From positions 1 through 15,497 of the forward strand of contig JAISRY010000204.1 of assembly GCA_031273385.1 (NCBI GenBank): a DNA stretch of 15,497 bases, in the 5' to 3' direction. Of this stretch, positions 8,058-11,966 are shown one piece after another (the stretch's first letter is position 1; each line of letters starts with the position of its first letter). The translations under genes were made by a program, and so were the position numbers. The DNA is from Tannerellaceae bacterium (lineage in GTDB: Bacteria; Bacteroidota; Bacteroidia; Bacteroidales; Tannerellaceae). The notes beneath the pieces are model-generated. The model searched no databases. It saw only the letters and a list, made by a program, of their open reading frames with translations, and was not told the DNA's origin.

Positions 8058-10187
8058 ATGGCTACGCTTGAAAAGATCAGGAACAAAGCAGGATTGCTGG
8101 TAATCGTTGTTGGTTTAGCTTTGTTCGCTTTTATTATTGGAGACTTTCTAAATTCAGGTTCTACTTTTTTCAGACAATCGCAGGAGAAAATAGCTGAAGT
8201 CGATGGGGAATCAATCACTATTCAGGACTATCAGGAACGCATAGACGAAATGACGGAGGTCTATAAAATGCAGTCCGGGTCGAACAATCTTCCTGAAGAA
8301 TACGCCGCTCAGATGCGCCAGTCCGTTTTTGACGGGATGGTACAGGATATTATCCTGAGTGAAGCGTTGTATAAACTGGGCATGACGGTGGGAGCCGAAG
8401 AGCTGTTCGATATGGTACAGGGCGAAAATATCTCCCCGATCATTCAACAAATGCCCATGTTCAACAATCCGGAAACAGGGGCGTTCGATAAAACGGCGCT
8501 ATTGAACTTTCTGAAAACGATTGACGACGACAACATCGGCAACTATTCCCCCGAGCAGCAGGCACAGCTTCTTCAGGCCAAAAACTTCTGGCTATTCTGG
8601 GAAAAGAACATCAAACGCCAACGTATGGAACAGAAATACACGACGTTGCTTGGCAAGGCGCTGGCCGTAAACGTACTGGACGCAAAAGCCTCTTTTAGCG
8701 AGACGGAAGAAAGTGCGGACATCGTTTATGCCATGCAATCCTACTCTTCCATCCCCGATTCTACGATCAACGTAAGCAAACAGGAGATCGAGCAGCTGTA
8801 CAAGCAACGGAAAGAGCTGTACAAACAAAAAGAGGGCAAGGTGATCAAATACATTGCCGTGGATATCCGCCCCAGCAAGGAGGATTACGATAAAGCCGCC
8901 GCAGAGGTGGAAAGCATACGCGAAGAGCTGGCTACGGCGGAGCGGATTGCCGACGTGGTGAATGAAAATTCGGAAATACCCTACATAGACGCTTTCTTCT
9001 CGGAGAATGCGCTGGATCCGGAGATGAAACAGTTTGTAACGACAGCCTCCGTAGGAGACATCTACGGCCCGGCGTTCGAGAACGACAAATACAGGATATT
9101 CCGGTTGATAGACAAGGCCGTTGCCCCCGACTCGGTAAAGGTTAGCCATATCATGCTGGCGAATAACGGGAAAGAGGTGGCGTTGGCCGACAGTTTAATG
9201 GCCGTATTGAAAGCGGGAGGCGACTTTGCCCAATTGGCGCAGGAGTTTTCGACCGACCAGTCCGCCCAGAACGGCGGCGAACTTGGCTGGTTTACCGAAG
9301 TGGCCGCTTTGAGGGGGCTGAATGAAGAATTTAAGCATCTGATATTCTCTACGCCCCTGAATCAGGTGGTACAGTTGAAAAGCACATACGGCACACACCT
9401 GGTGAAAGTAACCGAAAGAACGGCAAACATACCCAAATACAAAATAGCGGATATTGATATCACCGTTACGCCAAGTTCGAAAACATACAGCAATATCTAT
9501 AACGAACTGAATCAATACATCACAAAGAATCAGGATATTGCCAAAATGGATGAGACGGCGAAAGAGGCCGGTTATAATGTGGTGAGCAACATTACGGTTA
9601 CGGCTTCCGACCAGACGGTGGGCAACATCAAAAACTCACGCCAGATTATCCGTTGGGCGTTCCAGAACAGCGGAGGAAAAATCTCCGATATCTTCGAGTG
9701 TGACGACAAGTTTGTCGTAGCGGCCGTTCAGGGGACGTTGAAAGAGGGATACCGTTCGTTGGCTTCTGTCGAGGCGGCATTGAAATCGGAACTGATCGCA
9801 CGGAAGAAAGGCGAACAGATCGCCCGCGACCTGAAAGCCAAGAACCTGGCCTCTTTGCAGGCATACGCCGAAGCGATGGGTTCGCAGGTCGATTCGGTCA
9901 AATTCATCAACTTTGCCACACGCCGTATTACGGGGATCGGGGCAGAGCCGAAATTGAATGCGATGATCTCTTTAGCGCAGCCCGGCCGGTTGAGCGAACC
10001 CGTTAGCGGAACGAACGGCGTATATGTATTCGAAGTCATCCATAAAGAAAAAGAGGCGAAAGAATACAACGAAGCCGAACAAATCAAAACGCTGGAAGCC
10101 TCCAACGCCTATCGTTACGGCTATCAAGCGATCCAGTCATTGACAAACCAGGCAAAGATTGTCGATAACCGTATCCGCTTCTATTAA
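8058..10187 (+). CDS. ppiD: Membrane-anchored periplasmic peptidyl-prolyl isomerase and chaperone (PpiD/SurA type)
   Basis: A 709-residue protein that helps fold outer-membrane and periplasmic proteins by proline isomerisation and chaperoning. The N terminus has a single transmembrane helix (about 11-31, GLLVIVVGLALFAFIIGDF) with a short basic cytoplasmic end, which fits PpiD rather than soluble SurA. A SurA-like helical N domain spans about 45-215. A parvulin domain lies at about 358-453: VSHIMLA at 362-368, FAQLAQEFSTD at 390-400, GGELGWF at 406-412 and GTHLVKV at 445-451. A second parvulin-like segment without these motifs may lie at about 455-560. The length is near the 620-720 range seen for PpiD in Bacteroidetes. 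The gene has its own promoter and is followed by a strong terminator, so it is likely monocistronic. Confidence 0.9.
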   Translation: MATLEKIRNKAGLLVIVVGLALFAFIIGDFLNSGSTFFRQSQEKIAEVDGESITIQDYQERIDEMTEVYKMQSGSNNLPEEYAAQMRQSVFDGMVQDIILSEALYKLGMTVGAEELFDMVQGENISPIIQQMPMFNNPETGAFDKTALLNFLKTIDDDNIGNYSPEQQAQLLQAKNFWLFWEKNIKRQRMEQKYTTLLGKALAVNVLDAKASFSETEESADIVYAMQSYSSIPDSTINVSKQEIEQLYKQRKELYKQKEGKVIKYIAVDIRPSKEDYDKAAAEVESIREELATAERIADVVNENSEIPYIDAFFSENALDPEMKQFVTTASVGDIYGPAFENDKYRIFRLIDKAVAPDSVKVSHIMLANNGKEVALADSLMAVLKAGGDFAQLAQEFSTDQSAQNGGELGWFTEVAALRGLNEEFKHLIFSTPLNQVVQLKSTYGTHLVKVTERTANIPKYKIADIDITVTPSSKTYSNIYNELNQYITKNQDIAKMDETAKEAGYNVVSNITVTASDQTVGNIKNSRQIIRWAFQNSGGKISDIFECDDKFVVAAVQGTLKEGYRSLASVEAALKSELIARKKGEQIARDLKAKNLASLQAYAEAMGSQVDSVKFINFATRRITGIGAEPKLNAMISLAQPGRLSEPVSGTNGVYVFEVIHKEKEAKEYNEAEQIKTLEASNAYRYGYQAIQSLTNQAKIVDNRIRFY

Positions 10188-10233
10188 GCAAGAAGCAAGT
10201 TAACGTATATACAGGCGCCTCTCTGAGGTGTGC

Positions 10234-10274
10234 AAAAGGGCAAAAATCCTCATCTGGGATTTTTGCCCTTTTTT
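10234..10274 (+). terminator. intrinsic terminator of ppiD
   Basis: Perfect 16-bp arms at 10234-10249 and 10257-10272 (AAAAGGGCAAAAATCC and its complement) enclose a 7-nt loop, with T residues continuing to 10274. The hairpin lies 47 bp after the ppiD stop. The left arm starts with A residues, so it could work in both directions. Confidence 0.9.
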
Positions 10275-10303
10275 GCATCAAATTAATTGTCGTAGTGGCT
10301 AAG

Positions 10304-10468
10304 GAATACGAAATAAATAACCTATAACGGTATAAAGGTCTTAGAGCATTAACCAGAGGGCAACGCCCTGTCATGTTCGGAAGAAGTATCAACGGCTCTC
10401 AACTCTCAATTCTCAACTCTGACTGGCCGTTGGCCTTTATACCGTTATAGGTTATTTATTTCGTATTC
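10304..10468. mobile_element. 165-bp element with 35-bp terminal inverted repeats (MITE-like)
   Basis: Arms 10304-10338 and 10434-10468 are exact reverse complements over 35 bp. TAAG occurs just outside both ends (10300-10303 and 10470-10473), which could be a target duplication or a decayed arm extension. Inside are a hairpin AGGGC-AAC-GCCCT (10357-10369), a 7-bp inverted pair CAACGGC/GCCGTTG (10390-10396 and 10426-10432) and, between those, four 7-bp units of the CTCTCAA type (10396-10423). There is no gene. The structure fits a non-autonomous mobile element or a REP-like composite; no transposase is in the window. Confidence 0.7.
10396..10423. repeat. 7-bp tandem repeat, four units
   Basis: Units CTCTCAA, CTCTCAA, TTCTCAA and CTCTGAC follow each other without gaps. 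The pyrimidine-rich array sits in the loop of the CAACGGC/GCCGTTG inverted pair inside the 165-bp element. Slippage could change its copy number. Confidence 0.75.
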
Positions 10469-10486
10469 TTAAGCCCGGAGGGCTGA

Positions 10487-10647
10487 ATTTTCATAACCGC
10501 AGGTCAACGACCTGCGAGCAGGCAATCACACTAATCACTGCCTGAAAGGCAGGACTGTCTTATATCCTAAAAAGATTGTCCTGCCTTTCAGGCAGTGTTC
10601 GTGTGGTTGCCATCTTCCGCAGGTCGTTGACCTGCGGTTATGAAAAT
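10487..10647. repeat. 161-bp nested palindrome
   Basis: Outer arms 10487-10516 and 10618-10647 match perfectly over 30 bp. Inner arms 10536-10555 and 10578-10597 match perfectly over 20 bp. Between them 10519-10535 and 10598-10611 are imperfect complements, and the centre is a 22-nt AT-rich loop (10556-10577). Each arm is itself a palindrome: CGCAGGTC-AAC-GACCTGCG (10498-10516) with its inverse (10618-10636), and CTGCCT-GAA-AGGCAG (10538-10552) with its inverse (10581-10595). Flanking hairpins AGCCC-GGA-GGGCT (10472-10484) and ATGCCC-TTC-GGGCAT (10649-10663) are placed symmetrically. It resembles REP/BIME-like repeats; no gene is present. Confidence 0.85.
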
Positions 10648-10709
10648 CATGCCCTTCGGGCATCACTGCGACAATTTGAATTGAAAATCGACCCTGGAAA
10701 GTCAACCTA

Positions 10710-10729
10710 TTGCTTATTGCAGTAAGCAA
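10710..10729. promoter_or_regulatory. 7-bp inverted repeat over the ATPase promoter (possible operator)
   Basis: TTGCTTA at 10710-10716 and TAAGCAA at 10723-10729 are perfect complements with a 6-nt centre. The repeat covers the -33 element of the ATPase promoter, where a bound protein would block transcription. This is a candidate only: no regulator gene is nearby. Confidence 0.35.
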
Positions 10730-10745
10730 AAAATGCGTAACTTTG
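10716..10745 (+). promoter_or_regulatory. promoter of the DUF4143-type ATPase
   Basis: ATTG at 10716-10719, an 18-bp spacer and TAACTTTG at 10738-10745, a perfect TAnnTTTG. Transcription should begin near 10751, only about 13 bases before the ATG at 10764, so the leader is very short. This placement rules out any start codon upstream of 10764. Confidence 0.6.
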
Positions 10746-10763
10746 TATACTGTAATACACAAA

Positions 10764-11966
10764 ATGGAAGATATGGATGCTTTGTTTGAAAAATCGTATC
10801 GCCGGACTGAAAGCGTTTCGCTGAATTTCGTGAGGAGTATAATGAGTGATATTCAGTGGGACAACCGTTTGATTGGTATTCGCGGAGCGCGGGGCGTAGG
10901 TAAGACGACTTTGCTGTTGCAATATATGAAGCGATTTCTGCCCCGGGATGCATCGGCTTTGTATGTAAGCCTGGATAACATCTGGTTTTCGGAACACCGG
11001 CTGGTTGAGTTGATTGACGGCTTTGTTAAAAAAGGGGGGAAATATCTTTTTGCGGATGAAGTACACAAATACCCGAACTGGTCGCAGGAGTTGAAAAATG
11101 CGTATGATGATTATCCTGAACTGAAGATTGTTTTTACGGGTTCGTCGTTGCTCGAAATTCTGAATGCCCGCGCCGATTTGAGCCGGCGCGCCGTGGTCTA
11201 TCAGATGCAGGGCTTGTCGTTCAGGGAATATCTGAATATGAGTTTGTCCGAAAACTTTCCTGTTTATTCCTTGCAGGATATACTGGAAAATCAGCGGGAT
11301 ATTTCAAGTGAGATACTGAAACGGATAAAACCCCTGCAATATTTCAGCCGCTATCTCGAAAGCGGTTATTATCCTTTCTCGTTCGAGATGAAAGAGTTGT
11401 ATTACGGTCAACTGGAAGAGGTTATCAACCTGATTCTCGAAATAGAATTACCCTTGCTCAGGGGCGTTGAGATGGCGTACATCGGCAAGTTGAAACAGTT
11501 GTTGCTGATTATTGCCGAGTCGGCCCCTTTCACGCCCAATGTGCAAAAGTTGAGTGAGCATATCGGCATCAACCGCACGACGCTGGTCTCGTATCTGCAT
11601 TACTTGCAGGAAACGCACCTGACAAAACATTTGTACAAAGATACTTCAGGCATGAGCAAGCTGCAAAAGCCCGACAAGATTTTTCTCGAAAATACCAATC
11701 TGGCATACGTGCTGGCTGCCGGCCGCGCCAATATCGGCAATTTGCGTGAAAGTTTCTTTTTCAATCAATTGGATTACCGGTACAGGACGGAGTATTCCGA
11801 AAAAGGCGATTTCCTGATTGACAGGAAATACACGTTCGAAATAGGAGGGAAAAGCAAAAACAACCGCCAGATCTATTCGCTTGATCATGCGTATATCGCT
11901 GCCGATGATATTGAATATGGACTTGAGAATAAAATCCCCTTGTGGATGTTCGGTTTCCTGTATTGA
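10764..11966 (+). CDS. Stand-alone AAA+ family ATPase with DUF4143-like C terminus
   Basis: A 400-residue ATPase (COG1373-like) of unknown function. Walker A is GARGVGKTT (41-49) and Walker B is YLFADE (94-99), followed by the sensor-like FTGSSLLE (124-131) and the RRAVVYQMQGLSFREYL stretch (141-157) typical of this family. Residues about 254-282 (FTPNVQKLSEHIGINRTTLV onward) look like a winged helix. The C terminus contains GDF...FEIGGKSK with Asp349, Glu359 and Lys363, an arrangement resembling the D-ExK pattern of PD-(D/E)xK nucleases; that likeness is inference. No partner gene is present. It has its own promoter and terminator, sits between core genes directly after a repeat cluster, and reads visibly more AT-rich than its neighbours, all consistent with an acquired cargo gene. 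ATG 10773 is an alternative start. Confidence 0.85.
   Translation: MEDMDALFEKSYRRTESVSLNFVRSIMSDIQWDNRLIGIRGARGVGKTTLLLQYMKRFLPRDASALYVSLDNIWFSEHRLVELIDGFVKKGGKYLFADEVHKYPNWSQELKNAYDDYPELKIVFTGSSLLEILNARADLSRRAVVYQMQGLSFREYLNMSLSENFPVYSLQDILENQRDISSEILKRIKPLQYFSRYLESGYYPFSFEMKELYYGQLEEVINLILEIELPLLRGVEMAYIGKLKQLLLIIAESAPFTPNVQKLSEHIGINRTTLVSYLHYLQETHLTKHLYKDTSGMSKLQKPDKIFLENTNLAYVLAAGRANIGNLRESFFFNQLDYRYRTEYSEKGDFLIDRKYTFEIGGKSKNNRQIYSLDHAYIAADDIEYGLENKIPLWMFGFLY

Follow-up and report, generated by a model that had tools for sequence, protein, structure and literature searches.

The right lobe of an intergenic hairpin array, at positions 10472 to 10663 of the window (the whole stretch of 15,497 nucleotides from a Tannerellaceae bacterium that was analysed here), most probably represents a non-autonomous, REPIN-like unit belonging to a REP/RAYT system whose enzyme is of the subclass 1.2 type, at a probability of about 0.83. 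We conclude this because the same hairpins flank a Y1 transposase gene in the same order in other genomes, because a spacer of 28 nt stands at the place of the gene here, and because the hairpins were associated, among the loci examined, with one clade of transposases only. The array lies between a gene ending at 10187 and a gene for an AAA_14 ATPase. Its features are as follows; the hairpins were located by a palindrome scan, and hairpin B is also an exact site common to many genomes.

10297-10475, unstranded: left lobe, an inverted repeat with 42-nt arms (10297-10338 and 10434-10475) around a truncated member of a second dispersed repeat family
10357-10369, + strand: left-lobe hairpin AGGGC-AAC-GCCCT, belonging to the second family
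10425-10435, + strand: left-lobe hairpin GGCC-GTT-GGCC
10472-10663, + strand: right lobe, the candidate REPIN-like unit A-B-C / C'-B'-A' of about 190 nt, recognised by its inverted repeats and its dispersed copies in the same genome
10472-10484, + strand: hairpin A, AGCCC-GGA-GGGCT
10498-10516, + strand: hairpin B, CGCAGGTC-AAC-GACCTGCG, with TTTTCATAAC just before it
10538-10552, + strand: hairpin C, CTGCCT-GAA-AGGCAG
10553-10580, unstranded: spacer of 28 nt between C and C'; relatives have a transposase ORF at this place
10581-10595, - strand: hairpin C', the inverse of C, CTGCCT-TTC-AGGCAG
10617-10637, - strand: hairpin B', the inverse of B, CCGCAGGTC-GTT-GACCTGCGG, stem of 9 bp
10649-10663, - strand: hairpin A', ATGCCC-TTC-GGGCAT

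An earlier note on this DNA had described eight palindromes with 3-nt loops between 10357 and 10663, and all eight were found where it had placed them. Their number is far above that in 500 dinucleotide shuffles. With stems of at least 5 bp, seven perfect palindromes with a 3-nt loop were present in this interval (shuffle mean 0.31, maximum 3); with at least 6 bp there were five (mean 0.06, maximum 1) and with at least 4 bp nine (mean 1.23, maximum 6). The palindrome scan of the same interval gave no loops of 4-8 nt with stems of 5 bp or more. A ninth, weak hairpin, ATGA-AAA, occurs at 10640-10650. Folded as a single strand, the array was 20-22 standard deviations better than its shuffles, either as RNA or as DNA. 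The stem lengths of 4-8 bp given in the note hold in general, with B' being one base pair longer.

The eight hairpins are present but are not independent of each other, since A/A', B/B' and C/C' make up the arms of two long inverted repeats; these arms measure 44 nt in the outer repeat (10473-10516 and 10618-10661) and 26 nt in the inner repeat (10536-10561 and 10572-10597). The right lobe therefore has three distinct hairpins, which are mirrored, and the other two hairpins belong to the left lobe. The inverted repeats begin at about 10297 and not at 10357, where the array had been said to start, and the region 10297-10663 is made up of two elements side by side. Ahead of it, an inverted repeat of 16 nt, perfect and with T's at its end, was found at 10234-10272, which we read as a putative terminator of the upstream gene; it is absent from the output of the terminator scan. 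No Rfam family and no tRNA was detected in the window, and a promoter scan of 10100-10850 gave nothing. The PdxA protein encoded in the window shares 93% identity with a protein named from a Tannerellaceae bacterium, which makes a host among the Bacteroidales probable.

Copies of the right lobe are dispersed in the genome of the window, an assembly of 2.31 Mb in 251 contigs that is 70% complete. A query of 416 nt had 95 matches in it, and right-lobe copies were read at 16 places, which lie on 15 contigs; some of these copies are incomplete or run off the end of their contig. A full copy has the order A, then ATTTTCATAAC, B, C, spacer, C', B', A', and the spacer between C and C' measured 22-31 nt at 11 distinct places. 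Ten of the 16 copies do not overlap any mechanical ORF of 100 or more amino acids, and six do at least partially. Most copies have diverged to 85-94% identity over the core. In L004, L006, L007, L011 and L015, flanks resembling CTTCGACAGGCTCAGCCACCGCG and GGGTGCATTTGACC extend the inverted repeats symmetrically, as if the arms change together. The exact B site occurs 25 times in this genome, and at the genus level 3 of 18 genomes, including this one, have any such site. No PF01797 (Y1_Tnp) gene was found in the 70% of the genome that is covered, and thus the IS200- or RAYT-like gene that the earlier note suggested looking for did not turn up there.

The gene was found elsewhere. PF01797 genes were detected in 33 of 60 genomes, with that of the window counted among the 60, and in G052, which belongs to the same order and to another family, a Y1 gene has the hairpins on either side of it. 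When named genomes were scanned for the pattern, at least 117 stretches with the hairpin were returned, which is no census of the hosts, and among the stretches listed a close relative of the G052 gene lies beside the hairpins in L126, L145 and L184. In all eight full or near-full genes of this clade the order A-B-C is found upstream with C nearest to the gene, B being changed in L306. The mirrored order C'-B'-A' follows downstream in seven of the eight, where the stems are not all perfect. In the planctomycete copy L308 (the same as L145), A-B-C precedes the gene and a B-like palindrome comes after the stop codon, with no C' right after it. The homologous hairpins thus enclose a gene of about 150 codons in other genomes and, in the window, 28 nt. 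In the transposase loci there are also changes of the B stem that keep its pairing, for example to CCTTAGGTC and CCATAGGTC, and some copies have a mismatch or a bulge.

The encoded proteins match PF01797 with 74-84 bits and also NF033573, and they match the structures of the ISHp608 transposase by sequence (E about 1e-4). Both histidines of the HUH motif are invariant across eight aligned clade proteins. The clade copy in L310 has an isoleucine in place of the catalytic tyrosine. This copy comes from the Prolixibacteraceae-labelled bin G251 (L310, L322, L332), where the query had 14 Y1 matches, two accompanied by hairpins of the window type.

The association of the hairpins with the enzyme was examined by searching 25 genomes with one clade enzyme, which gave 46 places, 30 of which were analysed as loci. 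The palindrome GGTC-NNN-GACC was present within 600 nt of eight of the nine clade genes and of none of the 21 others (Fisher p = 1.5e-6); the B site is present in the genomes of 20 of these 21. The nine clade genes have 64-100% identity to the query, and L321, which is among the eight with the palindrome, is only part of a gene. The clade gene without it, L306, has A and C together with an altered palindrome resembling B. In a tree of 17 proteins the clade of eight was supported with 99/98. The earlier suggestion of a RAYT-type system was therefore borne out in so far as the hairpins stand in the same order around a Y1 gene elsewhere, which in the loci analysed holds for a single transposase clade. 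The phage and plasmid collections contained only distant Y1 relatives, with 31% and 36% identity for the best row; no plasmid matched the array at the DNA level, the exact B site was absent from the viral contigs, and no vehicle was found in the phage and plasmid collections.

Palindromes were then recorded around Y1 genes in general. A convenience sample of 93 non-redundant genes was used, from which identical domains and domains shorter than 80 residues had been dropped; 40 of the sampled places were hand-picked from a listing, minus some with stops and some extra copies. The motif Y...Q..HH was found in 73 genes, 12 were of the Y...Q type and 8 remained unclassified. The main statistics refer to the 73, three of which came from the hairpin pattern scan, and their assignment to subclass 1.2 is by the motif Y---Q--HH only and not by the published subclass HMM. 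Within 150 nt of these genes, palindromes with stems of at least 6 bp occurred at 36.5 per 10 kb for 3-nt loops, 32.8 for 4-nt loops and 7.4 for 5-nt loops, and beyond 800 nt the density for 3- and 4-nt loops was down to about 5-7 per 10 kb. A recurring palindrome within 500 nt was found with a 3-nt loop at 36 of the 73 genes, with a 4-nt loop at 25 and with either at 53, as compared to 1-8 of 73 for loops of 5-8 nt. The controls for the 53 were 2 of 73 at a distance of 800-1300 nt and 0.45 of 73 in shuffles. No such palindrome with a 3- or 4-nt loop was seen within 500 nt of any of the 12 Y...Q genes or the 8 unclassified ones, and 20 of the 73 Y...Q..HH genes had none either. When the window-type clade was removed, 49 of 69 genes still had one. 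The canonical REP tag is missing, since of 352 hairpins only 12 had GTAG, GTGG or CGTC close to a foot.

The constant geometry with differing stems that had been claimed for the window thus recurs near most of the sampled genes with the subclass 1.2 motif, but a 4-nt loop is about as common there as a 3-nt loop. A general code of two loop classes, AAC/GTT and GAA/TTC, was considered and rejected, because TAC, GTA, GCA and other loops occur near other Y1 genes and because of the equally common 4-nt loops.

Which parts of the hairpins are constant was studied in segments centred on B. Of 128 segments with enough flank, 69 had a palindrome with a 3-nt loop upstream of B, with varied stems, and 95 had one downstream; the loop was GAA in 56 of the 69 and in 76 of the 95. 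A slightly different draw of 141 segments gave 69 upstream and 94 downstream, as compared to 6.4 and 12.0 in shuffles. Palindromes with a 4-nt loop were found upstream in 49 of the 141, as compared to 7.1; in this analysis only the 3- and 4-nt rows were used, since loops of 5 nt or more include 3-nt hairpins with their inner pair opened. The GAA loop is the constant part of A and C, whereas in B the stem is kept across phyla, partly since the search pattern demands it, and the loop varies. Hence the stem sequence seems to matter too, and loop and stem may both be read by the enzyme. Among 31 pairs of B sites less than 800 nt apart, 27 were oriented head to head, 24 of them at distances of 86-193 nt; in two further head-to-head cases, 10 nt apart, one hairpin was counted on each of its strands.

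The left lobe represents a second repeat family with a like hairpin geometry, of which it is a truncated remnant. The core of this lobe, GGGC-AAC-GCCC and then GTCATGTTCGGAAGAAGTATCAACGGCTCTC, or only its second part, was found in six other stretches of the same genome with seven matches, which continue as GCTCTC-GGA-GAGAGC (with the loop GTA in one) and in some cases with further hairpins. The hairpin GGCC-GTT-GGCC also adjoins hairpin A in two copies on contig C207. A transposase for the left lobe was not found, and among the loci examined the exact core string occurred only in loci of this genome and in one locus of G013. Full second-family copies (L281-L286) carry several further hairpins with 3-nt loops, and tandem blocks of a sequence like GGATGCATACTCTTTCGGGAAA lie beside them in L281 and L284-L286. 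A short repeat, CTCAACTCTCAATTCTC, at about 10396-10420 of the window was seen at many places in the genome, often in tandem. A third family has the hairpin GATAAAC-GCA-GTTTAT together with GGGTACTCGCAATGACGG (sample contigs L261-L280; flanks in L011, L017 and L026).

The claim that triplet-loop palindromes are enriched in the genome was analysed in 20 of its contigs (19 whole and 20 kb of another; 215,879 bases), with ORFs of 120 or more amino acids taken as coding. It held for noncoding DNA, where 19 palindromes with stems of at least 6 bp were present as compared to 4.7 expected from shuffles; coding DNA was not enriched (61 as compared to 61.0), and 4-nt loops were also in excess in noncoding DNA (12 as compared to 4.4). 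The noncoding excess is not one of AAC or GAA loops, as the two proposed loop classes would have had it, but is mostly due to a different repeat, whose loops include CAG and GCA. Since the third family, with ATAAAC-CAG/GCA, supplies much of the noncoding 3-nt-loop palindromes in these contigs, the sample supports the geometry and not the two loop classes.

The B site was then counted in 19 genomes that had been chosen because of a hit. Four Planctomycetaceae-labelled bins contained 118, 96, 88 and 34 exact sites and supply 34 of the at least 117 hairpin stretches. Two Flavobacteriaceae-labelled bins contained 73 and 1, a Desulfuromonadales-labelled bin 20 and the other 12 genomes, with a Spirochaetaceae-labelled bin (1 site) among them, 1-72, the names of the Flavobacteriaceae and Desulfuromonadales being bin labels. 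The reversed pattern was found in none of the 19. The hairpin also occurs in genomes named Seramator thermalis (a named strain), Paludibacter and Prolixibacteraceae. Most of the bin names with the hairpin look, as we take it, like termite and cockroach gut samples; a paper search gave no confirmation of such an origin. In the Spirochaetaceae-labelled bin (L126, Ncb351_bin24) the contig seems to have an rseC-like gene and a stretch resembling a TPP riboswitch, which we assume to be of the Bacteroidales type. With these neighbours and a single B copy in the bin, its label is probably a binning error.

The planctomycete placement was examined with G235, one of the four bins. Its transposase contig also encodes a protein of 733 amino acids, which was matched in 39 of 40 other genomes of the same family with up to 251 bits, and in the order of the window in 3 of 41 genomes, all weakly (at most 28.6 bits). 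This distribution makes the contig most likely planctomycete, as judged from the neighbouring gene. The B site is present in 2 of 61 genomes sampled from this family, namely G235 and another of the four bins. When 20 flanking ORFs were compared with Pfam (18 of them in the four bins and 2 in the Desulfuromonadales-labelled bin), mostly ordinary domains were found, which is not decisive. The listed loops of G235 are mostly TTT, TGC and TCT, and those of the Bacteroidales bins AAC, ATC and AGC. This difference would fit copies that were amplified after their entry, but AGC and AAC loops also occur in G238, a second one of the four bins. In the tree, two other Y1 genes from the G238 bin pair with Bacteroidota genes (97/94 and 90/88). 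Within the clade the planctomycete gene is the first to branch off; as the tree is midpoint-rooted, it does not give the direction of a transfer.

The process by which the window copy could have arisen is inferred from these arrangements. The hairpins would fold while the DNA is in single-stranded form, for instance on the template of the lagging strand, and a RAYT that is encoded elsewhere in the genome, or was formerly present, would bind them by stem and loop. It would cleave and strand-transfer the unit, and copies would spread between genes. The window copy would have come from a hairpin-flanked transposase unit that lost its ORF, may have been moved by such an enzyme, and might still be mobile. 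By its sequence the array looks like the passenger of a little-known mobile element. Alternatively, the hairpins could be derived from a REP/RAYT system but no longer be mobile, being kept for the protection of mRNA, for transcription end or for chromosome folding, side roles that REPs of other bacteria have. The divergence of most copies and the lack of a Y1 gene in the genome speak for this, but the assembly is incomplete, and intergenic, structured copies are predicted by the mobile reading as well. We regard an immobile remnant as rather doubtful, though a serious contender.

Much less can be said for the other explanations. If the array served as terminators or attenuators at gene ends and the repeats were incidental, its strong folding would be accounted for, and A and A' with the following GATTTTCAT do score terminator-like (2 found as compared to 0.6 in shuffles). 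B and C, however, have no T tracts and do not score, the upstream gene already has the inverted repeat read as its terminator, and the ordered hairpins around one transposase clade would be left unexplained, which makes this function a very improbable one. We think it similarly far-fetched that the unit is a MITE-like element that was moved by a classical DDE transposase and contains the small hairpins incidentally; inverted arms that are long, partly symmetrical and different from copy to copy would suit such an element, but in other genomes the hairpins themselves flank a Y1 gene. Chance or an artefact of assembly and binning is hardly credible. The sources are fragmented metagenome bins, one of which is probably mislabelled, but the shuffle controls, the lack of the reversed pattern in all 19 genomes, the copies in the named-strain record of Seramator thermalis and the gene next to the planctomycete transposase argue against it.

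The REPIN-like reading of the right lobe can be extended to a wider proposal, which we put forward tentatively and consider possible at best. The unit would belong to a system, frequent in Bacteroidales, that transposes single-stranded DNA by means of a neglected Y1 subclass and in which ordered mini-hairpins are recognised by their 3- or 4-nt loop and a lineage-specific stem. The system, which was found mainly in bins presumed to be from insect guts, would have been passed between Bacteroidota and Planctomycetota and re-amplified there to about a hundred copies. No report on an exchange of REPs between these two phyla was found in the open-licence PMC literature. The REP family and its enzyme on a planctomycete-supported contig, at high copy in the four bins and present in two of the 61 family members, offer a testable case of interphylum spread.

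Compared with known systems, the right lobe resembles a REPIN, a REP doublet that forms a hairpin (Bertels and Rainey 2011, PMC3116915), in its dispersed, intergenic pairs of close inverted palindromes and in the association with a Y1 transposase (RAYT). It differs from a REPIN in having three ordered hairpin types per arm in place of one REP, no GTAG foot and another Y1 subclass. The 3-nt-loop hairpin is shared with the Stenotrophomonas maltophilia REPtron (PMC8266576), where the sequence of the loop is needed for binding and cleavage; that study describes a single type of hairpin, whose cleavage requires GTAG. Like subclass 2.6 of the RAYTs, which is listed with 'atypical secondary structures' (Quentin et al. 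2018, PMC6006769), the system has Bacteroidetes hosts and palindromes without GT[AG]G, but the Y motif of that subclass, YIH[QN]NP, scored in 0 of the 93 sampled genes. A Y1 HUH enzyme and hairpins at the ends are also found in IS200/IS605 (subclass 1.1), which has the motif Y...Q without HH, unlike the Y...Q..HH of the clade enzymes; NCBIfam names these enzymes IS200/IS605 family despite this motif.

The motif places them with TnpA_Y1 subclass 1.2, for which the same survey gives Y---Q--HH and Bacteroidetes among the main hosts. In the survey this subclass is entered with REP 'no' and generally without typical terminal structures, unlike the recurring palindromes described here, and a search of the open-licence PMC literature found no report on REPs of subclass 1.2. 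Cognate palindromes are now attached to a subclass that was listed in 2018 without any. The REP/RAYT world of the Bacteroidales is thus larger than the survey describes, and this system would escape a search that relies on the GTAG rule. Occurring with and without the ORF, the hairpin unit provides a ready pair of autonomous and non-autonomous forms for biochemistry.
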